This document shows, one piece after another, positions 9,366 to 38,236 of a stretch of DNA of 45,109 nt; position 1 is the stretch's first letter; every line of letters begins with the position of its first letter. The translations under genes were made by a program, and so were the position numbers. The DNA comes from Opitutus sp. GAS368 (GTDB taxonomy: Bacteria; Verrucomicrobiota; Verrucomicrobiia; Opitutales; Opitutaceae): the NCBI GenBank assembly GCA_945871005.1, contig CAMBUJ010000005.1, positions 1 to 45,109 of the forward strand, given 5' to 3'. The notes below the pieces were generated by a model, which was not told where the DNA came from, searched no databases, and saw only the letters and a list, made by a program, of their open reading frames with translations.

Positions 9366-9367
9366 TT

Positions 9368-10210: not shown

Positions 10211-11143
10211 CTAATCGGTGATCCGGGCAACGAGGCGGCCGTGGCATTGCATAAGACTCGGATCAAAGGGAAATCCCCCGAAGGAATCATAACTTTTATT
10301 ATCCCGACCGCATTTAATTTCACCTGCATTCACTGCGATTCGAACAACCATTAGGGTCTTAAAATTAATGTCGGCCAAGAGATAAACCCCTGATTCGTGA
10401 ATGCGTGGTTCACCTGCGAAAATCAACAAATCGCCCTTCCTGAAAGTCGGATCCATACTATCATCACGCATTATATGCGCAACTAGGGGTAATGCGGGCA
10501 GTCGCGACATTAGGCTACCAATCACGAACAATCGATCTAGCGGGTAAGCCTTAGCTGTAGAAAACTGGGGAGTAATTCGCTGGAATAGCTCAACTGCCTC
10601 CCTGACCCCTTCAGGCGCTACAGCACGCATGACTTCACTCACGATATCGTCGGCGACAGGCGGAACATCTTGATTGTCATTCCCACACAACAACCAAGTA
10701 GCTGAGACATTCGCAGCCTGACATAGTACGCGCAATTCCGTGCGGTTAAGCTCCGAACCCGCTTTAACCTGCGCAAGACGATCTTCTGGTATTTTAGTAA
10801 GCGCAGAAAGACCGCCCACACCATTAAACCGGGTGAGCAGTTGATCAAAACGCATCTGAAATTTCTGTTCCGCTAGTGGATCCTTACGCAACGAACCATC
10901 GTCGTAGCCCTGTGGACCCACCCCTGCTGCTAGCCATTCAATGCTAACTTCAGCAGTTCGGGCAATCGTGACGATGTTACGCATGCTAGGCTCTCCACCA
11001 AAGAAATATTTGCGCAGGGTACTATGGGGAATCCCAGATGACTTAGATAAAGCGTTAATGGACCCTAACTTGTCAGCACAAAATTTAAGCCGCGCACGAA
11101 GAGCATCACCTTCAGGCGTTGGCTTGGGGGAGGGTGCACTCAT
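10211..11143 (-). CDS. HTH repressor with S24/LexA-type C-terminal domain
   Basis: This 310-residue protein has an N-terminal HTH of the phage-repressor type (about 15-75, GIPHSTLRKYFFG), a second similar helical segment (about 95-155, TKIPEDRLAQVKAG) that may be a duplicated HTH, and a C-terminal S24 peptidase fold (about 210-310). The nucleophile motif is present as DDSMDP. The segment aligning with the T-V-K-R-L lysine motif of LexA reads MVVRI, so the catalytic lysine seems to be replaced and self-cleavage may be lost. It is divergent from the Tn7-like tnsAB gene, with a 96-bp control region between, and probably represses transposition genes. Confidence 0.82.
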   Translation of the reverse strand: MSAPSPKPTPEGDALRARLKFCADKLGSINALSKSSGIPHSTLRKYFFGGEPSMRNIVTIARTAEVSIEWLAAGVGPQGYDDGSLRKDPLAEQKFQMRFDQLLTRFNGVGGLSALTKIPEDRLAQVKAGSELNRTELRVLCQAANVSATWLLCGNDNQDVPPVADDIVSEVMRAVAPEGVREAVELFQRITPQFSTAKAYPLDRLFVIGSLMSRLPALPLVAHIMRDDSMDPTFRKGDLLIFAGEPRIHESGVYLLADINFKTLMVVRIAVNAGEIKCGRDNKSYDSFGGFPFDPSLMQCHGRLVARITD

Positions 11144-11203: not shown

Positions 11204-11288
11204 TTGACCTAGCCCTTAAGGAACACTGAATGTCCCTTTGTGGATACCAATAAAAACTGGAAAGGAATAATTAAGTCCTTAAGGAACA
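11204..11288 (+). promoter_or_regulatory. candidate operator region of tnsAB
   Basis: The 12-mer CCTTAAGGAACA occurs twice in the same orientation, at 11214-11225 and 11277-11288, 63 bp apart. The first copy sits just before the GTG start and the second inside the first codons of tnsAB. The first copy is also the left arm of an imperfect inverted repeat, AAGGAACA-CTGAA-TGTCCCTT (11218-11238). A TTGACC at 11204-11209 could be a -35 element, but no good -10 follows at the right distance. These repeats are the best candidates for binding sites of the divergent repressor. They could also be transposase-binding sites. Confidence 0.45.
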
Positions 11289-13945
11289 GGGCAGGGCTTA
11301 CAAATGAAGGCCTAGCATACGTGGAAAGTGTCGTCACTTCGCCGCCGAGCCGAAATCCAAGTAATTGCAGTGGCCGAAATCTAATCACCGACTACGCCTC
11401 ACGAAAAATGGGGCATACCATGCAGCTCGAAAGCCTGACCGTGGAGGCTGCGTTCGCCGAATTTCTTGAGTTTGATGACAACTGTCTTGGCTACTGGGCG
11501 CAGCCCGCCCCATTCAGCATTCCATGCACAGGCAAAGATGGAATTAAGCGCCATACGAAACTCACATTCGATTTCCTGGCTATATACTATGACCGAGTCG
11601 AATGCTATGAGTGCAAAAAAGAAAGCGACCTGTTGCTACTAGAAGAAAAAATCCCGCTTAGATATAAGAGGACTGAATCAGGAAAGTGGTCATCGGCTGA
11701 AGTGGAGCCCTACATCCAAAATTTAGGGATGAAGTTCGTGATTAAAAGCGAAGCGGAATTTAATAAGACACTTTTGCGCAACTACACAATGCTGCAAGAA
11801 GTAAGGCAGTTAGAATACTCAAACCCTTCAGCCCTAACAAACCTCAAAGAATGCATTCAGATCAATCCCGCGACAACTAGTCTGAATTATTTATTAAAAT
11901 CATCCGCAGATAAACATTACACGAAAAACGACATCTACATTGCGATTAAAAGACGCGATTTACATGTCAATCTGTCCGAAAACCTCCTCGTAGACTGTAA
12001 AACAACGCTTGTTTTCTCTAGCCTAGAGAAGTTGGAAATACACAGACTCCTCCAACCTAAGGCCAAATCCATATCGACACCAACCATTATCATTAGAAAA
12101 GGGTCAAGGCTGCTATGGGATAAAATGGAGTATGAAGTTACCCGGGCCTCAAGCAGAGGCGTGGAGCTGAAAACAGCCAAAAACATCAGTCAGCTGATCC
12201 CCAAAGACCTCTTAATTAAATTAATTCACCAATCAGAAATTGAGGTGATTGCACCGCCGGAGAACAAGAATAACCCAGTCAATATAGATGACCTTAGCAC
12301 CATTGCACTATCAAAAGAGCAACAAAATAAGGCGCACAAAAAACTACAGTTTTTAAGGTCACTGGAAACCGGCGGAGGGAACGATCCAACGGTCTTCGGT
12401 CTTAAGCCATCAACTAAACGAACCATACAGCGATGGAAAGTTAGCGCGCGCGAATCAGAAAGCAAGTTTTCGACGGCATATTTGGGGTTGATCGATAAAC
12501 CCAGAACAGGGCGCCCCCGAAATGAATTACCTAATAAAATTCGCGAAATAATGACTTTAGTTGCGAATGAGTTGTACTTCAGTAGCACGGCCCGAACAAT
12601 GACATACTGTTGGAGGGAAGTATGTAAAATAAGCTTAAGCGAAAAAATTAGACCGCCATCCAAAGGGGCATTTCGGCACCATGTGGGTAAAATGAGGAAT
12701 ACTGCAGATACTATTAAATGCCGAAATGGAAAAGGCGCGGCATATAAATTCAAGAACCAGAATGTGGCCGAAAAAAACTGGATATCAGCAGGCGACTTCC
12801 CATTTAAAATCACTCAGATGGATGGAAAGACCTTCGACGTCCTCGTGATCGACGATGAAACGGGCGAGGTTTTGGGGCGCCCAACCATTACCTTAATCAC
12901 GTTACCGCATTATGGTGCTGCACCGGTGGGGATGGCCCTACTTTTCGAGCCTGAATCCTCCAGATCGGCAACCGTTGCTGTACGCGAAATGCTCAAACGG
13001 TTTAATGAGCCACCCAAATACATAGTAGTCGATAACGGGAAGGCATTCAACAATACAACTTTCGATCAACTCCTCGGAATACTGGGAGTAACCAAAATTA
13101 ATCGCCCGCCACGCGATCCAAGATTTGAATCGGAAATTGAAAGTACATTCAAGACACTCGACACAGAAATAGTGCACAATCTAAAAGGCAATACGAAGGC
13201 ACTAAAATTGGCGCGTGAAATGAGTAAAGAGGTAAATCCTAAAGGCCTCGCGGTCTGGACATTTTCAGAATTATACGACGTAATCGAAAACTACCTTTTT
13301 AACATGCTATGGGATGCGCCTTCGGCGGCCATTGGCACTACACCCAGAAAAGCTTACAAGCGCGATGAGGCCAGGTCGCCAGACCGGAGTAGCTCGTTCA
13401 TTATCACTCCTGAGCTAGCCAATGTAGCCTTTTTACCTGAGGTGGACGGCGGAACCAGGCTCATCCAACCCGGCAAAGGAGTGTATATTGAGGGATTTTA
13501 TTATTGGAGTGAATCAATGAATAACCCCGGCTTACACAAAACGAAAGTTCCGGTTCGATATGACCCATACGACCTGTATACAGTGTTTGTGGCAATAGGA
13601 GGAAAGTGGATAAAATGCATCGCCCGACGTGCACCTGAACTACGCAATATGACCGTCCGAACCCGCCACCTACAATGCATTGCAATTAGAACGCTCAAAA
13701 ACAGCCACTCGCTAAGACGCGAACAGACTCACGGCAAAGCACTTGCCATTAGCCACACCAGAAATCGTGAAATCGAAAAAGTACTCAGCGAGAATCGACG
13801 GGCCAATGCGCAGCGATATGCACTGGAGCAGGTGCAGGAAAAACCCCCGATTAATACAACACCCAAAATCAAACATAACGCGCATAATATTGATGAAATA
13901 ATGCTGCCTAAATTTGATTTTTCTTACTTACGGAAATCAGCTTAA
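11240..13945 (+). CDS. tnsAB: fused TnsA endonuclease-TnsB transposase (Tn7-like)
   Basis: This 901-residue protein joins two Tn7 functions. Residues about 70-190 form a TnsA-like endonuclease domain with FAEFLEF, a YWAQP strand, a diverged TPDFL motif reading TFDFL, and E-C-K (ECKKES), so the catalytic Asp and Lys are kept. Residues about 410-750 are a TnsB/TniA-type transposase with DDE residues in QMDGK (about 528), VVDNGKAF (about 597) and ESEIEST (about 630). TnsA nicks the 5' ends and TnsB joins the 3' ends, giving cut-and-paste transposition. The GTG start at 11240 has no clear Shine-Dalgarno sequence, so the start is uncertain by some codons. Confidence 0.88.
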   Translation: MDTNKNWKGIIKSLRNRAGLTNEGLAYVESVVTSPPSRNPSNCSGRNLITDYASRKMGHTMQLESLTVEAAFAEFLEFDDNCLGYWAQPAPFSIPCTGKDGIKRHTKLTFDFLAIYYDRVECYECKKESDLLLLEEKIPLRYKRTESGKWSSAEVEPYIQNLGMKFVIKSEAEFNKTLLRNYTMLQEVRQLEYSNPSALTNLKECIQINPATTSLNYLLKSSADKHYTKNDIYIAIKRRDLHVNLSENLLVDCKTTLVFSSLEKLEIHRLLQPKAKSISTPTIIIRKGSRLLWDKMEYEVTRASSRGVELKTAKNISQLIPKDLLIKLIHQSEIEVIAPPENKNNPVNIDDLSTIALSKEQQNKAHKKLQFLRSLETGGGNDPTVFGLKPSTKRTIQRWKVSARESESKFSTAYLGLIDKPRTGRPRNELPNKIREIMTLVANELYFSSTARTMTYCWREVCKISLSEKIRPPSKGAFRHHVGKMRNTADTIKCRNGKGAAYKFKNQNVAEKNWISAGDFPFKITQMDGKTFDVLVIDDETGEVLGRPTITLITLPHYGAAPVGMALLFEPESSRSATVAVREMLKRFNEPPKYIVVDNGKAFNNTTFDQLLGILGVTKINRPPRDPRFESEIESTFKTLDTEIVHNLKGNTKALKLAREMSKEVNPKGLAVWTFSELYDVIENYLFNMLWDAPSAAIGTTPRKAYKRDEARSPDRSSSFIITPELANVAFLPEVDGGTRLIQPGKGVYIEGFYYWSESMNNPGLHKTKVPVRYDPYDLYTVFVAIGGKWIKCIARRAPELRNMTVRTRHLQCIAIRTLKNSHSLRREQTHGKALAISHTRNREIEKVLSENRRANAQRYALEQVQEKPPINTTPKIKHNAHNIDEIMLPKFDFSYLRKSA

Positions 13946-13956
13946 TTAACAGAATA

Positions 13957-15090
13957 GTGACCCGAAAAATGCTCTCCCCTCTCCCCTGCTTCCACGAAAC
14001 AATAAAACATGAATATTTCAATCAGTGCCTTGATCAACTGCATGAAATTGTAACACTTAAAACAAGTACAGGGTTAGTCATTGTTACTGGCCCAACAGGC
14101 GCCGGAAAAACAACCATGCGGGAAGCATTCGCGAGAGAACTTGAAATTCTGGCCGCCCCCGAAATCGCAAATAATCCAGAATTAATAGCATACGCATCAT
14201 GTTCGGTTAAAGCACCAGGCCCCACCGCATTTTCATGGAAAGACACGTACATACAACTCCTCCTCTCCCTATATCACCCTTTTGCCCACTCCAATTTGGA
14301 GCGAAACCCTAAATCATTTGCGTCAGCGGAATCTTTTTCCGCTAGCCCCGATTCACTGCAGAGAGTTACAAGTGACCGGCTTTTCCGTATTTTACAGAGA
14401 ACGATAAATCATCGCCGCCCCAAGGCGATATTTCTCGACGAGGCCCACCACCTACTAAGGCTTAAGTCCGGTCATTCGGTGCACAATCAACTCGAGCATC
14501 TAAAATATATCGCCGATGAAACCAAGACCCTACATGTGCTTTATGGTACTTACGAACTCATCGCATTGATGGATTTGAGCAGTCCACTTATAAGAAGAAG
14601 AGAAATCATCCATTTCCCCCGATACATATACTCCCCTGACAACCCAAAGGATAGCATTGAACCCTTCGCTAAAGTTGTTGCCGAGTTTGCGCGTGACCTT
14701 GATGACTTCAGCGAAGTAAGCCTACTTGAAGAAGTATACTACTACTACCAAGGCTCCGTGGGATGTGTTGGCGTACTTAGAGATTGGCTTTTTCGCGCTT
14801 ACTCGCGGACCAGATACGACAAAAACCAAAAGATCTCAAAAGAAATCCTTGAAGCAACGAAGTTATCCCCTGGGGATCTTTATGCCCTGCTAAAGGACGC
14901 ACGTGATGGCGAAGACTATTTCGCCAAAAGAAATTCCAAGAAAAAAGAATACTACGAAGCACTTGGATTCAGCATTCCAGAAAGCCATTCAGTAATTGAA
15001 TTGGGCGACATTAAAAAGAAGCCCCCGAGAAGCCCATTTAAACGAAAACCTCATAATGACCCCGTGGGCCTAGAATCTTTAACGCCCTGA
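13957..15090 (+). CDS. tnsC: TnsC/TniB-type AAA+ ATPase
   Basis: This 377-residue protein has a Walker A motif GPTGAGKTT at about residues 45-53 and a Walker B FLDEAHH at about 159-165, the pattern of TnsC/TniB ATPases that assemble on target DNA and pass the target to the transposase. It lies 11 bp after tnsAB. The GTG at 13957 is used here, but an in-frame ATG at 13969 (four codons later) is equally possible. The C-terminal ~100 residues are basic and charged and probably contact TniQ or TnsAB. Confidence 0.87.
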   Translation: MTRKMLSPLPCFHETIKHEYFNQCLDQLHEIVTLKTSTGLVIVTGPTGAGKTTMREAFARELEILAAPEIANNPELIAYASCSVKAPGPTAFSWKDTYIQLLLSLYHPFAHSNLERNPKSFASAESFSASPDSLQRVTSDRLFRILQRTINHRRPKAIFLDEAHHLLRLKSGHSVHNQLEHLKYIADETKTLHVLYGTYELIALMDLSSPLIRRREIIHFPRYIYSPDNPKDSIEPFAKVVAEFARDLDDFSEVSLLEEVYYYYQGSVGCVGVLRDWLFRAYSRTRYDKNQKISKEILEATKLSPGDLYALLKDARDGEDYFAKRNSKKKEYYEALGFSIPESHSVIELGDIKKKPPRSPFKRKPHNDPVGLESLTP

Positions 15091-15121: not shown

Positions 15122-16462
15122 ATGAAGTGCACGGAATTATTACGTGTCCGGCCCGGCGACGAAATGGGCCCACACCGGGAGTCCCTATTAAGTCTTATAA
15201 TTCGGACCGCTGCAGAAAATGATGTTAGTCCGGCCAAATTATTGACTATAAAGTTTAATGACTCCGAATCACCTGATAGCCCCAAATTGATATCAAGGAC
15301 CGTAGGCGCTAGTCTTGGAAAAAGCATTAATGGAGGTGGTCGAATCGCTTCATACTTCACCCAAAAAACTGAAGCATTGACCCAACTAAATAACCTATCT
15401 GCATCAACTACCACTGCGTTCTCAAAATTCACCCCAGAAAATGGACTTTTAAGAAATAAGCTTGCATGGAGTCCCGGCTATTTGAGCGAACACCCCACTG
15501 GATACTATCCACTACTTTGGGCCCTTGATGCCACTCGGGTCTGCCTGCACACCCATAAGCCGCTTGCTTCAGCGTGCCCACTCTGCAGGAACGAATTAAA
15601 TGTATTGTCGGGTGCAATGCGGATCGGAAAATGCTACCGGTGTGGCACCGATCTTTCTACAATGGATAAACATTTGGGCGCGACCAACCCCCTCGCCCAA
15701 GGCATTAAAGACATCGATTATGAAATATGGGTAGCACGAGAATTAGGTAATTTCATACAATATCAGGCATCTCACGAATTGCCCACTGACTTAAGCTTTT
15801 CGCCATCATTCCGGTTTTGGCTAGATAAGTTCGGCCTTAAAAATGACTCCAAATCAAGCACTCAACTGGGGCTAACCACCCAAGCAATGCATAACTGGTT
15901 TGGTAAAAAAACGAAACCCAGGCTAAGAATGACTCTTAACTTATGCTGGATTTTTAATCTATCGCTTCTCGATTTCATACTTTGTCGACAACCAATAACG
16001 CATAGCGGCTCATTACGCCCATCAGCAGACGCAGGAGAACGGCATGCACTCACCTCGGTCCGGCGGCCTTTAGATAAATCAAAAATGGAGATTAGGCTTA
16101 ACAACATTATCGATCAAAACCTACATGCGCTTGTTTCATTCTCTGAAATTTGCCGTAAACACATTAAAAGAAGCGATATTTTCATTAGACAGTGCTTCCC
16201 TGAACTCAGCCGCAAAATAAGCCAGAGATACCTGCAAAATCGAAAACTATTGGCCCAACTAGAACAGGACCAATATTGCACAGCAATTAAGTCTATTGCG
16301 CGGCACCTTCACGCCCAGGGCATTACTCCGAATCATAAAACGATTTCCCAATATGTAAAACAACCTGGGAAATTGAGATGCGACTACGCCATTGCCGCAC
16401 TTCGGGAAATCCGCGATGAATTAGGCTACTATAATCACGAGCGATTGTTGTCCTTCGGCTAA
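15122..16462 (+). CDS. tniQ: TniQ/TnsD-family target-site selector
   Basis: This 446-residue protein starts with the TniQ N-terminal pattern (RPGDEMGPHRESLLSLIIRTA) and has a zinc-ribbon with CPLC near residue 153 and CYRCG near residue 173. The C-terminal ~250 residues are basic and helical and should read the target DNA, as in TnsD. It is the last gene of the transposition operon, 31 bp after tnsC, and is followed within 90 bp by tRNA-Ile(CAU), which makes that tRNA gene the obvious candidate for its target. No CRISPR array or Cas gene is nearby, so guide-RNA targeting is not supported. Confidence 0.83.
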   Translation: MKCTELLRVRPGDEMGPHRESLLSLIIRTAAENDVSPAKLLTIKFNDSESPDSPKLISRTVGASLGKSINGGGRIASYFTQKTEALTQLNNLSASTTTAFSKFTPENGLLRNKLAWSPGYLSEHPTGYYPLLWALDATRVCLHTHKPLASACPLCRNELNVLSGAMRIGKCYRCGTDLSTMDKHLGATNPLAQGIKDIDYEIWVARELGNFIQYQASHELPTDLSFSPSFRFWLDKFGLKNDSKSSTQLGLTTQAMHNWFGKKTKPRLRMTLNLCWIFNLSLLDFILCRQPITHSGSLRPSADAGERHALTSVRRPLDKSKMEIRLNNIIDQNLHALVSFSEICRKHIKRSDIFIRQCFPELSRKISQRYLQNRKLLAQLEQDQYCTAIKSIARHLHAQGITPNHKTISQYVKQPGKLRCDYAIAALREIRDELGYYNHERLLSFG

Positions 16463-16549
16463 TTCGGTGTTTTTTTTGAGGCAAAGCCCATTTTCCGATT
16501 GCTGTTCTACGTGCTAAACCGAAGTTCAGGTCGTTCTTTGGATATTCTC

Positions 16550-16848
16550 GGGCCTATAGCTCAATGGTTAGAGCAGAGGACTTTCACGGGTCGGCGGTAG
16601 GGAAACCTACCGTTAGTCAGGTGTAAATTCGGTGAACGGCCTATCCGCACGGATGACCCAACGCCGAGCCAAGCCCACACTCAGGTGTGGTAAGGTGTAG
16701 AGGCCATAATCACCCACCTAAACCGATGGCGGCAGGGTGAAGGCATGGTCCAGACCACGCACGGTTTCCGATATGGAGTCCGGCGGCGAAAGCCGAAGTG
16801 GTAAGCATAATCCTTTGGTTCTGGGTTCAAATCCCAGTGGGCCCACCA
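16550..16848 (+). tRNA. tRNA-Ile(CAU), interrupted by a group I intron
   Basis: Exon 1 (16550-16582, 33 nt) and exon 2 (16806-16848, 43 nt) join to a 76-nt cloverleaf with an encoded CCA. The acceptor GGGCCTA pairs with TGGGCCC, the anticodon stem GAGGA with TCCTT, and the T stem CTGGG with CCCAG. The anticodon is CAU. The body matches the minor isoleucine tRNA rather than elongator methionine tRNA, with GGTTAGAGCAG and the TTGGTT variable region, so C34 should be changed to lysidine. The intron lies between U33 and C34. Compared with the intact copy at 31107, the 28-42 pair is A-U instead of G-C, a compensated change that suggests the tRNA is functional. Confidence 0.9.
16583..16805 (+). ncRNA. 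group I intron (Azoarcus-type) in tRNA-Ile
   Basis: The 223-nt intron has no reading frame. Exon GACU (16579-16582) pairs with GGUC (16589-16592), giving P1 with the conserved U-G wobble at the 5' splice site, and the intron ends in G16805. A perfect hairpin CGGTAGG-GAAA-CCTACCG (16595-16612) fits P2 with a GNRA loop, and CGGC-GAAA-GCCG (16784-16795) fits a P9 hairpin. Core segments AACGCCGAGCCAAGC, AAGGTGTAGAG, CACCCACCTAA and GGTGAAGGCAT are the same, or nearly so, as in the Azoarcus tRNA-Ile ribozyme as I remember it. It should self-splice with guanosine. The insertion point is 5' of the anticodon, while I recall the Azoarcus one following it. Confidence 0.9.
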
Positions 16849-16853
16849 TTTTC

Positions 16854-17156
16854 TCACGCTCTCAAGCGTTGCTCCAGCTTCTCATAATCCCCCAGATGCG
16901 CGCGCATAAGGCTTTTCCAGAGCTTTCCATGATTGGGAACGGAGAAGTGCAGGAGTTCATGCACGATCACGTAATCTCCGAGCGCGGGATCCATATCTAG
17001 GAGTTCATCGTTAAAACTCAGGGTGCCAGCCGTCGAGCACGACGCCCACTTGCGTTGCATGGGGCGTACGTAGATCGCGGTTGCCGGCACATCCAGTTTC
17101 GTCGCCCATTCCCTCACTCGCAGATGGAACGCTTCCCGTTTATACCAGCGCTTCAT
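16854..17156 (-). CDS. YgjP-like zinc metallopeptidase, short form
   Basis: This 100-residue protein matches the C-terminal core of the YgjP/DUF45 family: W-A-S-C-S, then a HELLH motif (residues about 67-71) followed by N-H-x-x-x-W, which supplies the zinc ligands. Full YgjP proteins are over twice as long, so this is a minimal form or a remnant of a longer one. Short proteins of this type are often encoded next to type I restriction genes. The start ATG (17156) overlaps the stop of hsdR (ATGA), so it is the last gene of the defence operon. Its stop is only 5 bp from the 3' end of the convergent tRNA-Ile gene. Confidence 0.78.
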   Translation of the reverse strand: MKRWYKREAFHLRVREWATKLDVPATAIYVRPMQRKWASCSTAGTLSFNDELLDMDPALGDYVIVHELLHFSVPNHGKLWKSLMRAHLGDYEKLEQRLRA

Positions 17157-20074
17157 TGTTTGAACGCGCGCTCCAGCAGGTTGAACAAAGCATCTACCGT
17201 TGTCGTTACCTTCCCTAGGTCGTCTTCATGGGCGTAGATGGCGAGGGTTACCTTTTTACGCAGTTCACGCAGCTCGCGTTCGCTTCTCTGCCAGTTGATG
17301 TGGAGCTTGAATGCACCGGCGATGTTTTCGCTCACGATCTTTGCATTGCCAATGCCATCTTCGGTGAGCTTGCAGAGCACAAAGTAGGTCAGGTTGTCCA
17401 ATCCCTGCGCGGCCTGTTCCTGTTTACGCTTTTCGTTTAGGGCGATAGCGGAGAGCAGTTCCTCCAGCGCCTCCGCAGTGCCGAGCTGCCGGTCTTCGAA
17501 ATTCTCCTGAACTACTTTTGCCCTATCAGACAGCGCCACCAAGAATGGGTCTTCGCTCTCATCCTCAGCCTTTTTCTCAATGCTCTTGATGAGGTTGATG
17601 ACCTTGGTCGCTTGGCCACCGGCTTGTTTTTTGATGACGTCGATGGTGGTGGCATCGATTTTAACAAAACCTTGTGGAGCACCCTCCATCATCGCGCCGA
17701 TGTGTTTTTGAACGAGTTCGTTGGTCTTCTTCTGAAACGCCCGATCAACATACACCTGCTTGGTGTAAGCTTTACGCACCACCTCGTAGATGCTCGACAG
17801 CGTCGTGTAGTCGTCGATGTAGGGTCGCAAAAACGCGTCCGGAGAGATGATCTCGTAGAGCATCTCCAGCTCCTTGTAGTCACGGAAGAAGGTCTTGCGC
17901 CGCTCCTTGTCGCGGAAGTGTTCGATCAGATTGTCGACGTCGTGATCGTTGAAGTTGTGCTTGAGCAACGCGAGGTAGGCGGGAGCCTGATCCTTCATCT
18001 TCGTCCCGAAGAGCAGCTTCAGTAGCCGCAGGTCCTTAACGATGGCGTTCACCTCGTCGCTGTCGAACGCGAGGGCCTTCTCCAACTTATCGAAGATGCC
18101 CACAAAATCCAAAACGAAGCCGTGCGGCTTCACCATCTCCTCAGCCTCATTTTCGTAAGGGCGGTTCACGCGGGCGATGGCTTGAAGCAAGGTGTGATCC
18201 CGCATCGGTTTGTCCAAATACATCGCGTAAAGGATAGGCGCATCGAAACCAGTGAGTAGCTTTTCCGTAACGATGAGAATTTTGGGCAGTTCGCTGCGTT
18301 TGGTGAAAGCCTTGCGGATCTGTCGCTCACGCTTCGGGTCGAGGTGCCACTTTTTAAGGTGCTCCTTGTCGTTATTGTTTCCGGTGAAAACGATCTCCGA
18401 ATACTCCGGTGGCAGGATCTGATCCAGAGCCTCCTTGTAGAACACACATGCCTCGCGATCCACACCGACGAGGAAGGCTTTGTAGCCGAGGGGCTCGACG
18501 TTTTGCAGGTAATGCTCGGCCACCATGGCAGCGACCTTGTTGATGCGTGCCTTTCCCTTGAGGAAGTTTTTGAGATTTACCGCACGCTCCAGGATTTTGT
18601 TGAGCTCCTCGATGTCGGCGACGCCCTCGCTCTCAACCAGCGCGAGAAACTCTGCCTCCATGATCTCCGTCGGCACGAGCATCTCGTTTGGAGCGAGGTT
18701 ATAGTAGAGCGGCAGGGTGGTGCCGTCTTCGATGCTCTCAGCGATGGAGTATTTGTGCAGGTAACCTTGATCGTCCTCGCAGCCGAAAGTCTTGAAGGTG
18801 CCTTTGCCAAAGACGGTCTTGTCCACCGGAGTCCCAGTAAAGCCAAGAAAGGTGGCATTCGGTAGGCCCGCCATGAGGAAGTTGCCGAGATCGCCACCGG
18901 TCGTGCGGTGCGCTTCGTCGATGAGGACGTAGATGTTCGCGCGCTTGTTGAGATCGGCCGGCATGTCGCGGAATTTATGGATCATCGTCACGATGATCCC
19001 CCGGTAGTCGTCCTTCAGCAGCTGGTTGAGTCGGGCGATGCTGCTGGCGTGCTCCAGGTTGCTTAGGCCGAGCGCGGCCAAGTTCTTGAGCATCTGGTCC
19101 TCCAATTCGTTGCGGTCGATCATCAGCAGGACGGTCGGCTTGTCCGCCTCAGGTGCGCGGAAGAGCCGCTCCGCCGCCTTGATCATCGTAAACGTCTTGC
19201 CGCTGCCTTGGGTGTGCCAGACGAGGCCTCGCTTAAGCTTGGGATCGAGGGCGCGGCTTACGGTCGCGTCCACCGCACCGGTCTGATGCTGGCGCAGGAT
19301 GTATTTATTCAGCTCCTCGTCCTTCTCGGCAAAGACGATGTAGTCCTTCAGGAACGCGAGCACCTGAGAGATGGCGCAGAAGCTCTTCACCTTGGCCTCT
19401 AGCTTGCCGACATCCGCGTCCTTCCAATTAAAAATGTTTCGTCGGACGGTGTTCCAGGTGACCCCGTAAGAAAAGCCGATGGCGTCGGTGGCGGTGAAAA
19501 GCTGCTGCGACACGAACAACTCGGGCGTCTCGCTGTGGTAGCGGCGGATTTGGTCCACCCCCAGGGCAATCGCCTCGTCCTTTTTGGCGTTCTTGCACTC
19601 GATCACCAGCACGGGGATGCCGTTGATCAGAAAGACCACATCCTCCCGCGTGCCGTAGTGGCCATTGTGAAAAGCCCACTCCTCGGTGACTTCGAAAAGG
19701 TTCCGCGCCGGGTCCTCGTAATCGATCAGGACCAGGTCGCGTTCACGCTTTTCCTCATGATCAAAAAATTTGCCCCGGTTGCGCAGGTGATCGACGAATT
19801 CCCGGTTGCCGTAGATGTCGGAGTGGAGATGGCGGAACTTCCCGAGCAAGGCCGCCTCGGCCTCGGCGTAACGCGGATTGAATTCGCGGACCTTGGCGTC
19901 GAGCAAGTCGTCGAAGAAGAGCGAACGATTCTTGGCGCGATCGGCGGGAGGCACATCGGGGTCAAACCCACGCCGCTGCTCGGCTTCCTCGCGGGATACG
20001 GCAGCCCAACCGATAGCCTCAGCGTAAGCGAGAATGCGGGCTTGGACGGTTTTGTGTTCTCCAGGTTTGGGCAT
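17153..20074 (-). CDS. hsdR: type I restriction enzyme R subunit
   Basis: This 973-residue protein is the motor and nuclease of a type I restriction system. The N-terminal PD-(D/E)xK nuclease has an IECKNAK motif at about residues 158-164. The SF2 translocase has Walker A in HTQGSGKT (about 287-294) and DEAH in LIDEAHRTTGG (about 386-396), then the usual helicase motifs including GFTGTP. The length is normal. It starts 6 bp after the TIR gene and overlaps the downstream protease gene, so it is expressed with the Thoeris genes that separate it from hsdM and hsdS. Confidence 0.95.
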   Translation of the reverse strand: MPKPGEHKTVQARILAYAEAIGWAAVSREEAEQRRGFDPDVPPADRAKNRSLFFDDLLDAKVREFNPRYAEAEAALLGKFRHLHSDIYGNREFVDHLRNRGKFFDHEEKRERDLVLIDYEDPARNLFEVTEEWAFHNGHYGTREDVVFLINGIPVLVIECKNAKKDEAIALGVDQIRRYHSETPELFVSQQLFTATDAIGFSYGVTWNTVRRNIFNWKDADVGKLEAKVKSFCAISQVLAFLKDYIVFAEKDEELNKYILRQHQTGAVDATVSRALDPKLKRGLVWHTQGSGKTFTMIKAAERLFRAPEADKPTVLLMIDRNELEDQMLKNLAALGLSNLEHASSIARLNQLLKDDYRGIIVTMIHKFRDMPADLNKRANIYVLIDEAHRTTGGDLGNFLMAGLPNATFLGFTGTPVDKTVFGKGTFKTFGCEDDQGYLHKYSIAESIEDGTTLPLYYNLAPNEMLVPTEIMEAEFLALVESEGVADIEELNKILERAVNLKNFLKGKARINKVAAMVAEHYLQNVEPLGYKAFLVGVDREACVFYKEALDQILPPEYSEIVFTGNNNDKEHLKKWHLDPKRERQIRKAFTKRSELPKILIVTEKLLTGFDAPILYAMYLDKPMRDHTLLQAIARVNRPYENEAEEMVKPHGFVLDFVGIFDKLEKALAFDSDEVNAIVKDLRLLKLLFGTKMKDQAPAYLALLKHNFNDHDVDNLIEHFRDKERRKTFFRDYKELEMLYEIISPDAFLRPYIDDYTTLSSIYEVVRKAYTKQVYVDRAFQKKTNELVQKHIGAMMEGAPQGFVKIDATTIDVIKKQAGGQATKVINLIKSIEKKAEDESEDPFLVALSDRAKVVQENFEDRQLGTAEALEELLSAIALNEKRKQEQAAQGLDNLTYFVLCKLTEDGIGNAKIVSENIAGAFKLHINWQRSERELRELRKKVTLAIYAHEDDLGKVTTTVDALFNLLERAFKQ

Positions 20075-20080
20075 GAGATT

Positions 20081-20653
20081 TTAACGCTCGAACGGATCTT
20101 TACCGGCAAGCCATTCATCGAAAACTATATAACATGTCGGACTTCGTCGCACCCAAAGCTTCTCGCCGTGTTTATCGCTTCGTTGCTGAGTAATGTACGG
20201 GTAGATCCCGAGATATTCCTGGCCTTTAAAATCGTCTGGTCTTGTCGATTGAAGAGGAAGAATGGCAGAGCGATTACTCTGACCATCTTTGAATCCGAGC
20301 TCCCACGGCATCCACTTTGAATTGCTCGTGCTCTCTGTTGTGGCAAAGAAAAGACACTTTGCGCTTCGCATGCGCTCCCGTAATTTCAGCGCGGTGGTTT
20401 GGTTCACGTTTTTCCGGTCAAGCGACGGATCATCCCGCCAGTCGAGATAAACCGTGTATCCAAGATCCTCTAGCGTTAAAGCAACTCCGAGAATCAACTC
20501 CTTATCATCAAAAGCGTGAGAAAGAAAGATGTCGTGTCTAGTTGAGGATGCCTGCTTTTGCATCCGCTCTGTGAGCACGCTGGCCGCACTAAAATTGGTG
20601 GGGACGCCCCGTTGCGCACGTGCCCTTGTGGCTGATGTGGTAAGTAGCGACAT
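20081..20653 (-). CDS. TIR-domain protein, second Thoeris sensor
   Basis: This 190-residue protein has a TIR domain from about residue 38: HDIFLSHAFDD, then a strand GYTVYLDWRDDP and a WMPWELG motif whose Glu118 is in the position of the catalytic glutamate of NAD-cleaving TIR domains. It belongs to a different TIR subfamily from the adjacent ThsB. Thoeris loci often encode more than one TIR protein, each sensing different phages and making a cyclic ADP-ribose signal for ThsA. Its ATG (20653) overlaps the stop of thsB (TGATG), so the two are translationally coupled. The first ~35 residues are low-complexity, and a later start is possible. Confidence 0.82.
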   Translation of the reverse strand: MSLLTTSATRARAQRGVPTNFSAASVLTERMQKQASSTRHDIFLSHAFDDKELILGVALTLEDLGYTVYLDWRDDPSLDRKNVNQTTALKLRERMRSAKCLFFATTESTSNSKWMPWELGFKDGQSNRSAILPLQSTRPDDFKGQEYLGIYPYITQQRSDKHGEKLWVRRSPTCYIVFDEWLAGKDPFER

Positions 20654-21228
20654 CAGGAGATCCAGGAGCTGAATTTGTTAAACCCGTCGTTAGAGACCCA
20701 ATCATAAGTCGGATACCACTTGGACAATTGAAAGTGTTTCCCGTGATTTTCAGCTGATTGCTGACGTGATAAGCTCCAGCCGTCATGTTCCGCGTAATTG
20801 ATCCAGGTGCCGTTGCGGTATTCTGTCGGGTTTACTCGGGTTCCATCATTGCTTATCGTGACACCCAAGTAATCAAACGGATTAGGCCCACTAAGTTTTG
20901 TTAATTGGTCTTTGCCCTTAATTGAATTAATATGAACCCCAAGAAGCGAGTTCCCGCAGGCCAAACTATGGATTATCTCATATCTAACCCAATTTCGGTC
21001 ATATGTTTGTGAGCCAATCAAGACCGCCGTGACTGAGGTTCCCTCCAATTCAGAATTGATGAGGCGCTTTAATGAAAGCGGATTCGTGTTCTTAGCGGTC
21101 TCCCAGATTGAGTGATCGTAGTAGCCAGCAGTTTCAACTCCCTCGGTGAAGTTGTGTTTACGAACAACGTTTGCCCGAAAATCGATGACGTCTTGGTAGT
21201 GAAAGGCGAAGTAAACTCGTTTAGCCAT
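20653..21228 (-). CDS. thsB: Thoeris TIR-like sensor ThsB
   Basis: This 191-residue protein is a close match in pattern to ThsB (DUF1863, TIR-like). It starts MAKRVYFAFHYQDVIDFRAN, has S-x-W-E-T near residue 42, IGSQTYDRNWVRYEI with Glu84 as the catalytic residue (Glu85 in Bacillus cereus ThsB), then GVHINSIKGKDQ and NPFDYLGV. On infection ThsB is known to make a cyclic ADP-ribose isomer from NAD that activates ThsA. It lies 2 bp downstream of thsA and overlaps the next TIR gene. It is full length. Confidence 0.93.
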   Translation of the reverse strand: MAKRVYFAFHYQDVIDFRANVVRKHNFTEGVETAGYYDHSIWETAKNTNPLSLKRLINSELEGTSVTAVLIGSQTYDRNWVRYEIIHSLACGNSLLGVHINSIKGKDQLTKLSGPNPFDYLGVTISNDGTRVNPTEYRNGTWINYAEHDGWSLSRQQSAENHGKHFQLSKWYPTYDWVSNDGFNKFSSWIS

Positions 21229-21230
21229 GG

Positions 21231-22682
21231 TCAGTATTTTTGTAGGTGGTGAATGATCTTCATGATTTCATTCTTCAATTCTGCCGGTGTTGCAGAGTTG
21301 TTGCCAAGTGCGTTGAAGCTCTTTCGAACCGAGGCGTTTGAATTGGGGAAGAAGTGGCTGAAATTTCCGTCTACCTCTTTCCAAAGCGTATCAGCCATAT
21401 AGCCGGTTGCTCCGATAGGGAGCGGGACAACACCAGACGCTACGCACAAATCGAATTCCTCCCTCATTCCATCTGATTCAATGATCGCTCCTGCCGCATC
21501 CCTTTTGTTTCCGAAAACAAAGATCGCGATACCAGCGTAGTCTATCATGGATTTCCTGTAGGTCGTCCATCTGGCTTTGGATGCCGGTTTCCCAGACGCC
21601 GTATGAGGAAACGGGCGCATCATGAGTTGTTCTTCCGAAATAGCGACTCCTGCTCGGTCAAGATGCTCCAGCGCACCGTTAACAATTACTCCACCGATCC
21701 CAATTCCAGATCCGGTGATAATACGATTTTGCTCCGCCGCGATCGAAGCCGCTAGTTCGTAAAGGAATGAGTCCACCTCGTGCGCCTTCCATGCCCCAAA
21801 TTCAGCGGCGGCACCCGACACGAAGATTGAGGAACGCTTGAATCGAGTGGCGACTCGCTCCAGCACGAGAGGTATATCCTCGTAGGTGTCTACTTCGACG
21901 GTTTGTATATTCTTCCGCTTAAGATCGCGAATAAAGTAATCCTGTTTGAGCTGGCGGTATTCGAAGTCACTTTTCTTCTCGTTCGGCCCCCTAGTGATTT
22001 TCTTCTGAATGCAGTAATGTTCACGCTGATTGTTTTCCAATACGGCTCGCACTCGACTCAGGATGAAATCGATGTTTGGATCGGTGAAGCTGAACCCAAG
22101 GAACAGGAACGTCTTTTCGATAAGATCGCCTTTCAGTAATGAAGCGAACTGGCCCATTTTGAACGGATACCGCTCGTAGTCATCCTTGCATATGACCGCG
22201 TTGGTCGGATCACCGACGTCACCGTGCATCTTATAGACGACCGCGTTTCGGTTGGGCCAAGTGGTCGAAAGTTGCTCAAGCGTATGTTTTACGTCCGGAA
22301 CTTTCTTGGCGTTTTCGAGGCTCGTTTCGATCAGCTTGTCATAATTGGTCGTCCAGAAAGTGTGGATAGGAAGACCGGCAAGAATCTCGTGGCCTCTGGT
22401 AGGCTTTTTTGCGACCCCGATATTGTGAAGAATCGTGCGCGTTAGTGCATTCTTGTTACCTCCCGCTTTATTCACGGAATACTGCGCTACGCTTACGAGA
22501 TCTTGCTCTTTGCTTGGGTCGAGTCCGAGATCCTTGATTACGCCCTCAAGAAGTTTTTCCCAATTGACGTAACCAGCAGACATTGAAAAACCAGCGCCGA
22601 TAAAAACTGCAGCATTCCGGCTATGGAGTTCTTTGGTGAACTCACGGAGAAACTGTTCCTCTGGAATTGCTTCGGTGCTCAT
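21231..22682 (-). CDS. thsA: Thoeris effector ThsA (SIR2-SLOG NADase)
   Basis: This 483-residue protein has an N-terminal SIR2 domain with FIGAGFS (27-33), TTNYD with Asn113, and KMHGD with His153. These are the catalytic pair that correspond to Asn112 and His152 in B. cereus ThsA. The C-terminal SLOG domain starts near residue 285 (IFVSGAAAEFG, then GSGIGIGG) and binds the cyclic ADP-ribose signal from ThsB. When activated it depletes NAD and stops phage spread by killing or arresting the cell. Its ATG overlaps the stop of hsdS (ATGA at 22679-22682), so Thoeris translation is coupled to the type I restriction genes. Confidence 0.94.
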   Translation of the reverse strand: MSTEAIPEEQFLREFTKELHSRNAAVFIGAGFSMSAGYVNWEKLLEGVIKDLGLDPSKEQDLVSVAQYSVNKAGGNKNALTRTILHNIGVAKKPTRGHEILAGLPIHTFWTTNYDKLIETSLENAKKVPDVKHTLEQLSTTWPNRNAVVYKMHGDVGDPTNAVICKDDYERYPFKMGQFASLLKGDLIEKTFLFLGFSFTDPNIDFILSRVRAVLENNQREHYCIQKKITRGPNEKKSDFEYRQLKQDYFIRDLKRKNIQTVEVDTYEDIPLVLERVATRFKRSSIFVSGAAAEFGAWKAHEVDSFLYELAASIAAEQNRIITGSGIGIGGVIVNGALEHLDRAGVAISEEQLMMRPFPHTASGKPASKARWTTYRKSMIDYAGIAIFVFGNKRDAAGAIIESDGMREEFDLCVASGVVPLPIGATGYMADTLWKEVDGNFSHFFPNSNASVRKSFNALGNNSATPAELKNEIMKIIHHLQKY

Positions 22683-23797
22683 GTGGTAATCTCAAGTTCG
22701 TGAACGCGGGTCTTCGCGGTCATCAGTTCGTGAAGGAGGGTGCTGAAGAGGTCTTGCAGCGCCGCGACTTTCGTCTCGGCGTTTCTTCCCTTTTGGTCGA
22801 CCGTATCAATTGCGCTGGCTATGTCGCGCTGCTCAGGAAGTGGAGGCCTCGGAATGCTCTTTTCCTTGAGCAACTTGAAATGTCGATTGTAGCCCCTACT
22901 CGGGAGATCAAGAGCGACAAGCGCGTGAAAGAAGAACTTGGGATCGAACAGCTTGGCGTTCGATTTCAGAATCTTCGTGCCGTCTGCGCCGAGAACGAAC
23001 GGGAAATCCACAAACTTGAAGCAGCGCGTGTGGTCTCCAAAAATCACAAGTGGCAAATCGAAATCAATCAGCCGCGCGTGGTCGTCTGTGAACCCAGCAA
23101 CGAACGCCTGTCCTTGATCGACTACAGGATGTGCTCCAATTGCCGCGATATCTTTTGCAGGAATCTGGTGCTGACGGCCAACACGCGTCTTTTGAAGCGC
23201 AACCGGAACCTTGCAAACCTCCCAGCTTTCGGGGACGGGGCCGATTTCGGTTTTTTTTTGTAGTTCGCGGCGGAGGCCTTCGGTGAAGAGCTTGTGCATG
23301 AGGGACTTTTTCAGCTCGGTGGTGGTCTGAATGATCCGCTCCTGCGCTTCGATCGCCCGCTGCACCGTCGAAAGGATATGCGCGATCTTCTTCTGCTCGG
23401 GGAGTGGGGGGAGCGGAAGGCTCCGTTCGTTGAGAATTGTGAAGTGGCGATTGTAGCCACGACTGGGGATCTCCAGCGCCAACAGAGCAAAGTAGTAGAA
23501 CCTCGGGTCGTAGAGCTTCTTGTTCGGCAGGAGAACCTTGGTTCCGTCAGCGCCAAGGATGAACGGGAAGTCGACGTATTTTAAGCAGCGCGTGTGGTCG
23601 CCGAACACAATAAGCGGCAGGTCGAAGTCGATGACCCTGCTTTCGTCATCGCAGTAACCGGCAACGAACTTCTGCCCTTGGTCGACGACCGGGAAGCGAC
23701 CAACCTCCGCGATATCCTTTGCGGGAATTTGGTTTTGCCGACCGACCTTGTTCTTAACGAACGAATCGGGCACGGCGCATGTTTGCCAGTCGTTCAT
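22679..23797 (-). CDS. hsdS: type I restriction specificity subunit with two near-identical recognition domains
   Basis: This 372-residue HsdS has the usual TRD-spacer-TRD-spacer layout, but the two target-recognition domains are copies of each other. Both contain QIPAKDIA, PVVDQGQ, FVAG, IDFDLPL, FGDHTRC, FPF-LGADGTK, PSRGYNRHF and PPLPEQ. TRD1 spans about residues 15-135 and TRD2 about 205-325. Each TRD reads one half of a split DNA target, so this HsdS should recognise two identical half-sites in inverted order, that is, a palindromic bipartite site. The nucleotide sequences of the repeats differ at many silent positions, so the duplication is not recent or has been maintained. The gene overlaps hsdM and thsA by ATGA. 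Confidence 0.93.
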   Translation of the reverse strand: MNDWQTCAVPDSFVKNKVGRQNQIPAKDIAEVGRFPVVDQGQKFVAGYCDDESRVIDFDLPLIVFGDHTRCLKYVDFPFILGADGTKVLLPNKKLYDPRFYYFALLALEIPSRGYNRHFTILNERSLPLPPLPEQKKIAHILSTVQRAIEAQERIIQTTTELKKSLMHKLFTEGLRRELQKKTEIGPVPESWEVCKVPVALQKTRVGRQHQIPAKDIAAIGAHPVVDQGQAFVAGFTDDHARLIDFDLPLVIFGDHTRCFKFVDFPFVLGADGTKILKSNAKLFDPKFFFHALVALDLPSRGYNRHFKLLKEKSIPRPPLPEQRDIASAIDTVDQKGRNAETKVAALQDLFSTLLHELMTAKTRVHELEITT

Positions 23798-25344
23798 ACC
23801 CCGAGTTTCTCCAGAATTTGCTTCAGCGCTTTGTCCGTCTCCCGCGCCTCGGCTTCGATGCCCTTCAGTTCCTCGACGATCTCGGCGATCGGACGGTAGG
23901 TTTCGGCGTCACTGGTGTGAATATAGCGGCTAGGTGAAATATTATAGTCGTTTTTCTTCAGCTCGGCGTGATCAACGATGCGGCTGAGTTTCGACTCCTC
24001 CGTCCACTCGATGAGTGTGCTCGCGATACGATCAATGCCCGCGTCGGGGATGAAGTTCTTGGGGTCGCCCTTTGCGAAGATCTGGCTGGCGTTGACGAGT
24101 AAGATCTTTCCCTTCCGCGCCATGGGCTTGGCTCGGTTAATAAATAGGACGATGCCGGGAGCCGGGGTATTGTAGAAGAGGTTTTCGGGCAGGTAGAGGA
24201 CGCTCTCGATAAGGTCGCGGTCGACGAACCACTGGCGGACGGTCTTCTCCTTACTGATTCCTGAGTTGCCAGAGCCGCGAGAGGCAGCGCCTGTGTCCCA
24301 GACGACCGCGGCGCGGCCGCGCTCGTTGAGGCTGGCGAGGATGTGCTGTGTCCAGCCCCAGTCAGCGGAGGATTTGCCGGGGAAGCCGGCTCCGGCGGGA
24401 AAGCGGTCGAGCTCGTCGTTGTCGTAGTCCCCCTCCGTGAACCAGTCTTGGTTCCACATGGGATTGGCGATGACACGGTCAAAGGTGCGGAGCTTGCCCT
24501 GCTTGTTGCGGAATTTGGGATTCTTGAACGTGTCGCCGATCTCGATCTTCCCCTCCATGTCATGGATGATCATGTTCATATTGGCCATGGCCCATGTTTC
24601 CGGGGTGTATTCCTGGCCATAAAGCTTTAGCGGGGCAGGTTTTTCGTCCTGAGCGCCTTGCTCCATGGCTATTTCACACTTCACCAGAAGACCACCGGAG
24701 CCGCAGGTGGGGTCATAGATGTCCATCCCGGGCTCGGGCTGCAGAACACGGGACATGATGGTGCCGACCTCGGGCGGAGTATAGAATTCACCGGCGCTCT
24801 GGCCGCCGCCCTCGGCGAACTTTCTGATCAGGTATTCGTAGCTCTTGCCGATGATGTCGGCCTCCACGTCCTCCAGCCCAAGTCGCTTGGTGCTGATCGC
24901 CTCGATGAGATTGGAGAGGCGATCGTCATCGATATCGCGCTGGCCGTGGGTGGTGGCGTTGAAGTCAACGCGATCGATGATGCCTTGGAGCAGCGGATTT
25001 TCACGGGCGATGGCCCGCATCTGGGTGGTGACGCCTTCGCCGATCTTGTCGGAGAGCTTGCGGATGACGGACCAGACGGGCTGTTCGGGATCGTCCGGCA
25101 GGAGCGGAAGGTAAAACCGGACAAGTTTTGGGTCGGCCTTGGCGATCTGAAAGGCCTTCTTCCTGGAACCGACGTCCTTGGTGATACGATTCAGCTCGTC
25201 GTCGAAGACGTCGCACAGGCGCTTGGTGAAGATGAGGGGAAGGATGTAGTCCTTGTATTTCGGCGCGTCCTTGGCACCGCGAATGGAGCAGGCGGCATCC
25301 CAGATCCAGGATTCGAGAGATTTGTTTTTATCGGGATCTGACAT
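23794..25344 (-). CDS. hsdM: type I DNA methyltransferase M subunit
   Basis: This is an N6-adenine methyltransferase of about 516 residues from the ATG at 25344. It has an HsdM N-terminal helical domain ([15 protein letters not shown]), the SAM-binding motif DPTCGSGG near residue 213 and the catalytic motif IV as NPMW near residue 291 (canonical NPPF/Y). The aromatic residue is Trp, which is tolerated in some HsdM proteins. An upstream in-frame TTG at 25383 would add 13 residues, but the ATG matches the family start better. It is the first gene of the coupled operon hsdM-hsdS-thsA-thsB-TIR-hsdR. Confidence 0.94.
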
Positions 25345-25434
25345 GAATACGTGTTTTGTGCGGACTGGAAACAAGTTGGGCAATGCTCGGTTGATGCGTT
25401 CTATCTATTTGTCAGTTTACAGCTTTGGCGGGAA

Positions 25435-30960: not shown

Positions 30961-31079
30961 GCGACATTTCGTGGTGACCAAAAAAATACCCACAAGATGT
31001 CGCTTTTTTCGCTGAAAAGCTGGTCACTACAAAATGTCGTACCGGTTTGGTCACCACAAGATGTCGTTTTGCGACATTC
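30961..31079. repeat. cluster of ~20-bp repeats beside tRNA-Ile
   Basis: A motif close to TGGTCACCACAAGATGTCGT occurs at 31048-31067 and 31021-31040 (forward), in a partial forward copy at 30986-31003, and inverted at 30961-30980. A half copy GCGACATT lies at 31071-31078, inverted. The first two copies in the row face each other and can form a stem. Several spaced, oriented copies of a ~20-bp motif are typical of transposase-binding ends of the IS21 and Tn7/Tn5053 kind, so this may be a leftover transposon end. Binding sites for a regulator are the alternative. Confidence 0.5.
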
Positions 31080-31106
31080 TAAAATGACTTTACCACGCGA
31101 CTAGAC

Positions 31107-31183
<77 letters not shown>

Positions 31184-36351: not shown

Positions 36352-36765
36352 ATGTGTCACACTTTGAGAGCGAGAATAAGCAAATCAGAAGCGGCCAGAA
36401 TTGCGGGCGTGAGTCGGCGCACCTTGATTCGTCACGCCTCGCAGGGGCTTATCTCGGAGGACAAGCGCGGGCGGGTGTTACTTAGCGAGGTCGCGAGTGC
36501 TCTTGTCTCGGATTCGTCGCAGGGTGCTCGCTTGGCGTGTCGGGCGAGGGTGCACCGAGTAATCGTTTTAGAGGGCAAAGAAACGACTGCCTACAAGGTC
36601 GCGAAGGCGGCGCTTGCGGGTATCGGATCGATACCGGCGGGGCGTGTTTTTATGGTAGCTCGGGAGCTATTCGAGGCCTATCTGCGTGACCCCGCCGGCG
36701 TCGTTGAACAGGCGCGGTTCTGTGCGGGAAACGAAGCGTTTGCTAGGTCGCAGGGGTGGCGGTAG
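36352..36765 (+). CDS. small HTH regulator of the integrative element
   Basis: This protein is 137 residues from ATG 36352. An in-frame TTG at 36325 would run into the divergent gene and is less likely. The N-terminal HTH reads ISKSEAARIAGVSRRTLIRHASQGLI, similar to MerR/excisionase-like recognition helices. The rest has no familiar domain. It is the only plus-strand gene of the element apart from the IS transposase. Its last 23 bp overlap the 3' end of the convergent integrase gene (36743-36765), so antisense interference between the two is possible. It may act as repressor or excisionase. Confidence 0.65.
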   Translation: MCHTLRARISKSEAARIAGVSRRTLIRHASQGLISEDKRGRVLLSEVASALVSDSSQGARLACRARVHRVIVLEGKETTAYKVAKAALAGIGSIPAGRVFMVARELFEAYLRDPAGVVEQARFCAGNEAFARSQGWR

Positions 36766-38107: not shown

Positions 38108-38187
38108 GTTCTGTAAATCGCTTGTAAGCAGTGGTAAAGTAAAGTGGTTAAGCAATACTTGCGAAGATTAAGAAAGAGTCAAGTTAA

Positions 38188-38236
38188 GGACTCATAATCC
38201 CTTGGTTCTGGGTTCAAATCCCAGTGGGCCCACCAC
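38188..38236 (+). repeat. attR: 49-bp tRNA-Ile fragment
   Basis: This is an exact copy of 31135-31183, starting in the anticodon stem and ending one base after CCA. The 5' half of the tRNA is missing, so this is not a functional tRNA but the displaced end of the attachment site. It marks the right border of the element. Confidence 0.88.

Follow-up and report, generated by a model that had tools for sequence, protein, structure and literature searches.

To our knowledge, there is no settled explanation for why self-splicing introns that lack a homing endonuclease persist in the tRNA genes of bacteria. The excerpts of the literature cited here by PMC number describe several related systems. Group I introns of tRNA genes are placed by a 2014 review in cyanobacteria and in alpha- and beta-proteobacteria (PMC4033280), and the tRNAscan-SE 2.0 paper adds tRNA-Ile2 introns of Acidovorax and Burkholderia (PMC8450103). 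The guide sequence of the Azoarcus intron pairs with the anticodon CAU itself (PMC6274277), and this intron therefore stands 3' of the anticodon. All group I introns observed in phages until 2014 lay in protein genes, according to the excerpt of another review of that year (PMC3984707). For archaea, Randau and Soll put forward the hypothesis that split or intron-containing tRNAs resist mobile elements (PMC4390854). Among the matches listed for open-licence full texts, no paper was found on tRNA group I introns in Verrucomicrobiota, nor on mobile elements with an intron-bearing replacement tRNA. The window, that is, the whole stretch of 45,109 nucleotides from Opitutus sp. GAS368 analysed here, contains a tRNA-Ile(CAU) gene interrupted by a folded group I intron, inside a transposon with recognizable ends and target duplication, and a second, intron-less copy of the same gene just beyond the transposon end (Table 1). 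In four related genomes, the host tRNA-Ile itself is split in two. Genomes are designated below by G numbers, G000 being that of the window.

Table 1. Positions of the features of the window.
Feature	Position	Strand	Remarks
HTH_3 protein divergent from tniA	10211..11143	-	beside tniA also in G015 and G125 (26-29%)
tniA, transposase (Mu-transpos_C)	11240..13945	+	homologues of 49-50% in G015 and G125
tniB, ATPase	13957..15090	+	
tniQ, putative target selector	15122..16462	+	stop 87 bp 5' of the intron-tRNA
GTTCTTTGG, boxA-like leader motif of the intron-tRNA (NusB/S10 antitermination)	16533..16541	+	
5' exon, tRNA-Ile(CAU) nt 1-33 (33 nt)	16550..16582	+	ARAGORN, sequence
Group I intron, 223 nt, IC3 type by resemblance	16583..16805	+	covariation (n=27); profile match to Rfam-recognised group I introns
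Intron helix P1	16579-16582/16589-16592		
Intron helix P2	16593-16601/16606-16614		
Intron helix P3	16620-16623/16711-16714		
Intron helix P4	16629-16634/16662-16667		
Intron helix P6	16668-16670/16694-16696		
Intron helix P7	16702-16707/16745-16750		
Intron helix P8	16715-16718/16736-16739		
Intron helix P9	16755-16758/16798-16801		
Intron hairpin P9b	16784-16795		
3' exon, tRNA-Ile(CAU) nt 34-76 with CCA (43 nt)	16806..16848	+	
Cargo, defence island	16854..30705	-	YgjP-like, HsdR, two ThsB TIRs, ThsA, HsdS, HsdM, DUF4011/Hhe-like helicase
Transposon right end, CACCACAAGATGTCG-type repeats and terminal ACTTTACCA	30962..31095	+	
5-bp target-site duplication CGCGA	31096..31100	+	partner before TGGTAAAGT, left end on G000 contig C135 (L141)
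Host intron-less tRNA-Ile(CAU), target; also attL of the downstream element	31107..31182	+	
Tyrosine integrase of the second element	36743..38155	-	homologues beside the split tRNAs of G032 and G195
attR, tRNA 3' part (nt 29-76)	38188..38239	+	98% identical to 31135-31186

The joined exons form a 76-nt tRNA with the anticodon CAT that is accepted by ARAGORN, which bears out the preliminary description of a cloverleaf divided by a 223-nt insert just 5' of the anticodon. With default settings ARAGORN missed the split gene; when long introns were allowed it returned exactly 16550-16848 with a 223-nt insert, but put the intron at position 37 and gave a wrong anticodon. The structural hallmarks described at first are likewise present: P1 consists of G-C, A-U, C-G and a U-G wobble in which U33 pairs with G, invariant in 27 of 27 sequences; GAAA loops close P2 and P9b; and the last nucleotide of the insert is G in all 27. 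The site between U33 and C34 of the same tRNA is shared by all 28 parsed loci, the window's included, with CATAATC unbroken 3' of the intron; the parse of the relatives presupposed this site, and the printed sequences of the 28 loci then agreed with it. The fold of the 299-nt precursor has a predicted energy of -116.9 kcal/mol (z -2.85; one of 200 shuffles was equally low), and the window has a single occurrence of the intron core motif, which was absent from all 100 shuffles. The split tRNA and the intact tRNA are one compensating pair apart, A28-U42 in the former and G28-C42 in the latter.

The Rfam model RF00028 (Intron_gpI), proposed at first as a check, was dropped as an arbiter. It found no match at the gathering threshold in the window, none up to E 10 in 16450-16950 and none genome-wide, and among eight relatives it gave one score of 23.7 bits (threshold 50) and no match for the other seven. 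Homology was therefore shown through covariation and a bridging profile. The expected Rfam match thus fell away while the assignment to group I stood, supported by fold, covariation and profile, with splicing as a prediction. Subgroup IC3 is our assumption, made from the GAAA loops of P2 and P9 and from a core that fits the Azoarcus intron as we take it to be.

By blastn the intron was matched in 31 of 252 genomes of the same family (own included), representing 16 of 49 genera, and its core motif was found on 92 stretches of IMG/VR viral contigs; the earlier statement that such introns are rare in bacteria has to be qualified to this extent. Thirty loci were looked at and 28 parsed (G186 gave no locus, and G264 and G051 stayed unparsed); G277, whose exon is masked, does not figure in the 27-row alignment, in the tree or in the exon comparison. 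In the alignment, a hand-drawn P1-P9 structure with crossing P3 and P7 is paired in 97.9% of cells, with two-sided changes in 22 pairs (P2 8, P5a 4, P6a 6, P7 2, P8 1, P9b 1). None of 500 shuffles matched the real alignment, and slides of 1-3 columns paired at most 45.4%. In the core, P7 and P8 are 99-100% paired and contribute two and one of the two-sided changes; the pairs of P1, P3, P5 and P6 are constant across the 27 sequences and hence provide no covariation evidence. A profile of the 27 introns, run against 11 loci, matched four viral-contig introns (L220, L228, L247 and L286) with E values of 1.4e-15 or lower, and these four pass the RF00028 gathering threshold with 51.4-74.9 bits. The intron search in plasmids and phage records gave no match.

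Among 80 of the 92 viral stretches (L219-L298), 34 fit a loose tRNA pattern on both sides, with several isotypes by eye. By reading, the intron stands 3' of the anticodon in seven CAT tRNAs, some near-identical, and before C34 in two; 7 of 12 pattern matches were read as true.

The split gene is assigned to Ile(CAU) rather than elongator Met by exclusion, since the weaker tRNA matches that were fetched proved to be Lys or elongator Met tRNAs. Elongator Met-like genes (GCCAG or GGCAG acceptor) are separate from tRNA-Ile in G007, G015, G032 and G125; full-length matches of 76-82% identity in G123, G279, G280, G180 and G113 lay outside the fetched set. A same-genus reference was available for 21 of the 27 intron-tRNAs, and 17 of these 21 (with one tie) have exons nearer to the intron-tRNA of another genus than to intron-less copies of their own, which speaks for a mobile unit; the control for this comparison is noisy, another genus being the nearer one for 18 of 45 intron-less tRNAs as well. 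The three transposon-borne tRNAs described below resemble intron-tRNAs of other genera more than their hosts' own copies. Of 29 intron loci, none has two or more flanking genes in common with an intron-less locus and three have one (G051, unparsed, and the window itself being outside this set), a test of low power in that intron-less loci share at least two flanking genes among themselves in only 12 of 43. The transposon-borne introns do not form one clade in a poorly supported intron tree, and a single origin for them is not supported by these sequences.

GTTCTTT stands in the 40 nt preceding 26 of 28 intron-tRNAs, the exceptions being G032 and G277 (masked exon), and in the 40 nt preceding none of 32 intron-less tRNA-Ile(CAU) genes, four of which sit behind a transposon end; the background is 16 of 11,896 40-nt windows (12 loci). 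We take this leader, by its presumed consensus, to be the boxA of the Nus antitermination complex. boxA recruits this complex, for which an aid to RNA folding has been proposed in the excerpts of two papers (PMC4807359, PMC10250234), and the recruited complex would suit a long, structured and untranslated intron-tRNA precursor. In G032 the start of the tRNA is repeated in truncated form just upstream of the intron-tRNA, preceded by a TTCTTTTT leader (L058, 9710-9731).

The genes tniA, tniB and tniQ are present in that order, as in TniABQ (Tn5053/Tn7-like) transposons. A 9-bp terminal repeat, TGGTAAAGT/ACTTTACCA, is common to the left and the right end. In G015 both ends are found on one 5.96-Mb chromosome, with the left end TGGTAAAGT 50,982 bp off and TCATT flanking both. 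The ends lie on different contigs in G000 (the window and C135), with CGCGA at both, and on two contigs in G125, with CCGCG flanking both; in these two genomes the element therefore rests on a 5-bp match, for which the chance is about 1 in 1,000 each. A second right end in G000 (contig C2:53340-53501, L138), 94% identical to the window's, is situated away from tRNA-Ile and is flanked by CGAGA, so that the CGCGA of the C135 left end picks the right end of the window. The right end with its CGCGA duplication thus places window positions 1-31095 inside the transposon and makes the intron-tRNA a part of it, and this right end stops 11 bp before the intact intron-less tRNA-Ile(CAU) at 31107. The window proteins that were searched gave no match to TnsA or CRISPR families; the contig does not include the left part of the element, and the ORF beside tniA is the HTH_3 protein.

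The remainder of the element holds various cargo. Between 17153 and 30705 a Thoeris system (two ThsB, ThsA) is nested between hsdR and hsdS/hsdM, and this cluster adjoins a DUF4011/Hhe-like helicase-nuclease of 1756 amino acids. The G015 element contains a counterpart of the gene pair at 666-2631: the band-7/SPFH gene has 87% identity and the adjoining gene 69%, far above the tni genes (50-58%). The cargo at 2634-10207 comprises two asparagine synthase-like genes, a weak radical-SAM match, glycosyltransferases and a PIG-L deacetylase; the neighbours that flank its counterpart in G015 are only about 280 bp apart.

Counting G000 itself, three of the 252 genomes, from three genera, were found to have this TniQ (G000, G015 and G125; homologues of 46-51% identity); G125 was reached through this search and not through the intron. 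The intron-tRNA follows tniQ by 87, 57 and 65 bp in G000, G015 and G125, and the right end precedes the intron-less tRNA-Ile by 11, 13 and 12 bp. Of all 31 intron genomes, these three carriers are the only ones in which a full-length intron-less copy (at least 89% identity) was found; G051 is excepted from this count, as its intron-less 5' part runs up to the edge of a contig. Searches with TniQ elsewhere gave cyanobacterial matches of only 23-31% in plasmids, no match in viral contigs, and in the genome contigs collection a single match, the G125 contig.

A search with the right end gave matches in 10 of 252 family genomes (that of G205 being just 30 nt long). It abuts tRNA-Ile in four, the three carriers and G012, a 93%-complete genome in which a right end with an altered last base lies 12 bp before tRNA-Ile and in which neither TniQ nor intron was matched. 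The right ends in G000 (C2), G263, G037, G118, G272 and G230 are not at tRNA-Ile, which counts against the rescue and shielding proposed below. G118 combines a right end with a different tniABQ (26%), upstream of whose tniA lies an intron-tRNA; no left end was found there in the 20 kb read, and G118 is kept outside the carrier count. In G248 a distant TniA/TniQ element (22-24%; L079, 8340-9963) with TTGCACATAAGTTTGCACT-type repeats lies just before tRNA-Ile(CAU), and in G243 a TniQ fragment (L080, 11477-12570) with repeats of this type lies before tRNA-Ile(CAU) or its 5' half, the last ACGACA being 7-12 bp from the tRNA or half; the intron search of these two genomes gave no match, which is also counted against rescue and shielding. 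Altogether 24 of the 31 intron genomes lack a firm link to a mobile element, with hints in G118, in G026 (a decayed 3' fragment) and in G264 (an integrase fragment 74 bp after the intron-tRNA).

A second element, of about 7 kb, occupies approximately 31183-38187 of the window; it encodes a DDE_3 transposase, a D5_N helicase and a tyrosine integrase, and leaves the intron-less tRNA-Ile whole. In G032, G195, G241 and G182 the host tRNA-Ile lies in two pieces, cut at the anticodon loop. Neither half is called as a tRNA there, and the halves joined at their common core (16, 11, 8 or 7, and 16 nt, respectively) give one tRNA(CAU). Every one of these cores contains CTCATAA, the loop that the intron interrupts. 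The intervals bounded by the halves measure 104 kb in G032, 65 kb in G195 and 29 kb in G241, and each of the three includes the intron-tRNA; the two halves of G182 are on separate contigs. In the one-contig genomes G032 and G195 an integrase homologous to that of the window stands beside attR, that of G195 belonging to the Phage_integrase family and that of G032 scoring 26.2 bits, just below the cut-off of 27.1; no such integrase was found in the attR neighbourhood of G241 and G182. The only intact tRNA-Ile(CAU) found in each of the four genomes is the intron-bearing copy. These hosts were found by the intron search, and a statement that every replacement has an intron would therefore be biased.

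We propose, with a probability of roughly 60% and on the basis of sequence comparison, that elements damaging tRNA-Ile(CAU) carry a replacement, and that the intron hides this replacement from the element's own integrase or TniQ and then splices out. TniQ would steer the transposon to the host tRNA-Ile(CAU), and insertion 11-13 bp upstream, between gene and promoter, would cut the tRNA off from its promoter and endanger an essential tRNA. The integrase islands would be a second kind of element with the same sort of intron-bearing replacement, whose integration in the anticodon loop would destroy the host tRNA-Ile. With the host tRNA thus cut off or destroyed, the cell would perhaps depend on the element's copy, which with a putative promoter of its own and the boxA-like leader would supply the tRNA once the intron splices out. 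One point against rescue is that the host tRNA, intact and 11 bp from the transposon end, may still be transcribed from the element.

In DNA the intron splits the replacement at the anticodon loop, so that the element's copy would not be seen as a target; it is because the intron sits in the attacked loop that hiding from integrase or TniQ is plausible. At U33/C34 it would break the integrase core and also the TniQ site, if TniQ reads like TnsD. TnsD of Tn7 reads its target some 30-55 bp from the insertion point, and the U33/C34 junction is 44-46 bp from the insertion point of the transposon. The ribozyme would restore the tRNA after transcription. Rescue and shield form a two-step logic, each piece of which can be checked separately. 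If the proposal is true, these are transposons that pay for harm to an essential gene, and if mobile elements keep introns to hide rescue tRNAs, the introns would have a selectable job at the level of DNA, apart from RNA. The odds are about even, judging from the sequences, for the broader idea that self-splicing introns serve as DNA camouflage in two unrelated kinds of elements, TniABQ transposons and tyrosine-integrase islands, which would explain the patchy spread of tRNA-Ile introns across genera and perhaps the intron-tRNAs of viral contigs.

A possible but distinctly less probable reading retains the replacement tRNA and dispenses with the shield: a captured tRNA-Ile would have carried a neutral self-splicing intron, which spread with the spare as a passenger. 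Splicing can render an intron insertion phenotypically neutral, as the excerpt of one review has it (PMC3984707), and many genomes have the intron in a sole-copy tRNA-Ile without an evident element, yet all three close TniQ lineages found have an intron beside tniQ when only 31 of 252 genomes have one at all. The G248 element, beside a tRNA-Ile without an intron copy, suits a passenger; the coincidence of the intron site with the loop cut by integrase elements, and the closeness of the three transposon-borne tRNAs to intron-tRNAs of other genera rather than to their hosts' copies, do not.

It is rather unlikely that the shield is directed at competing tRNA-targeting elements, or at homologous recombination with the host copy, instead of at the element's own machinery. 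The separate integrase element of the window did use the intron-less tRNA at 31107 rather than the intron copy at a distance of 14 kb, although one such case from one genome is weak evidence, and an analogous idea exists for archaeal tRNA introns in the excerpt cited above (PMC4390854); the attacking integrase and the intron-tRNA nevertheless share one interval in G032 and G195.

Very improbable is an ordinary tRNA intron at its native locus, with the transposon and the second tRNA as coincidental neighbours: the genus has intron copies without an intron-less partner (G007, G011), and the promoter region of G007 resembles by eye that of the intron-less G005, but ends and target duplication put the copy inside the element, the same gene order recurs in G015 and G125, and the two ends and the duplication on one chromosome already contradict this reading in G015. 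Just as improbable is a degenerate, non-splicing intron in a pseudogene, with which the missing RF00028 score would agree, since core, P1, terminal G and cloverleaf are kept with compensatory changes and the split copy is the sole intact one found in G032 and G195.

The proposal of a shielded replacement can finally be set beside known systems. Group IC3 introns of bacterial tRNAs are likewise small ribozymes in the anticodon loop; those of Azoarcus tRNA-Ile(CAU) and Acidovorax/Burkholderia tRNA-Ile2 interrupt the same tRNA, and cyanobacterial tRNA-Leu and tRNA-fMet introns also belong to this comparison group. The Azoarcus intron stands 3' of the anticodon, as derived from the excerpt cited, whereas that of the window stands 5' of it, at U33/C34. 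Unlike these introns, the present family is carried inside mobile elements, has a boxA-like leader and belongs to a host from Verrucomicrobiota, a phylum outside those named for tRNA introns in the papers cited. Ordinary tRNA-integrating islands restore the tRNA from a 3' half borne by attP, and the element at 31183-38187 is of that kind. The islands of G032, G195, G241 and G182 have in common with them a core in the anticodon loop and, in G032 and G195, a tyrosine integrase beside attR, but their host tRNA stays broken and the intact copy is a separate, intron-bearing gene. With Tn7/Tn5053-like transposons that use tRNA sites (type I-B2, I-D and V-K CASTs), the window element shares the TniA-TniB-TniQ order, repeated end motifs, a 5-bp duplication, a fixed distance to the tRNA and defence cargo. 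CASTs insert downstream of the tRNA and leave it intact, according to the excerpts of two papers (PMC10293859, PMC8649781), whereas the elements described here lie 11-13 bp upstream of it and bring along a spare copy. The hypothesis of Randau and Soll, as excerpted, has one point in common with the present proposal, namely that a tRNA, once interrupted, no longer offers an integration site. In their case the advantage falls to the host and enzymes do the splicing, whereas the interrupted gene described here is carried by mobile elements and its intron is a ribozyme.
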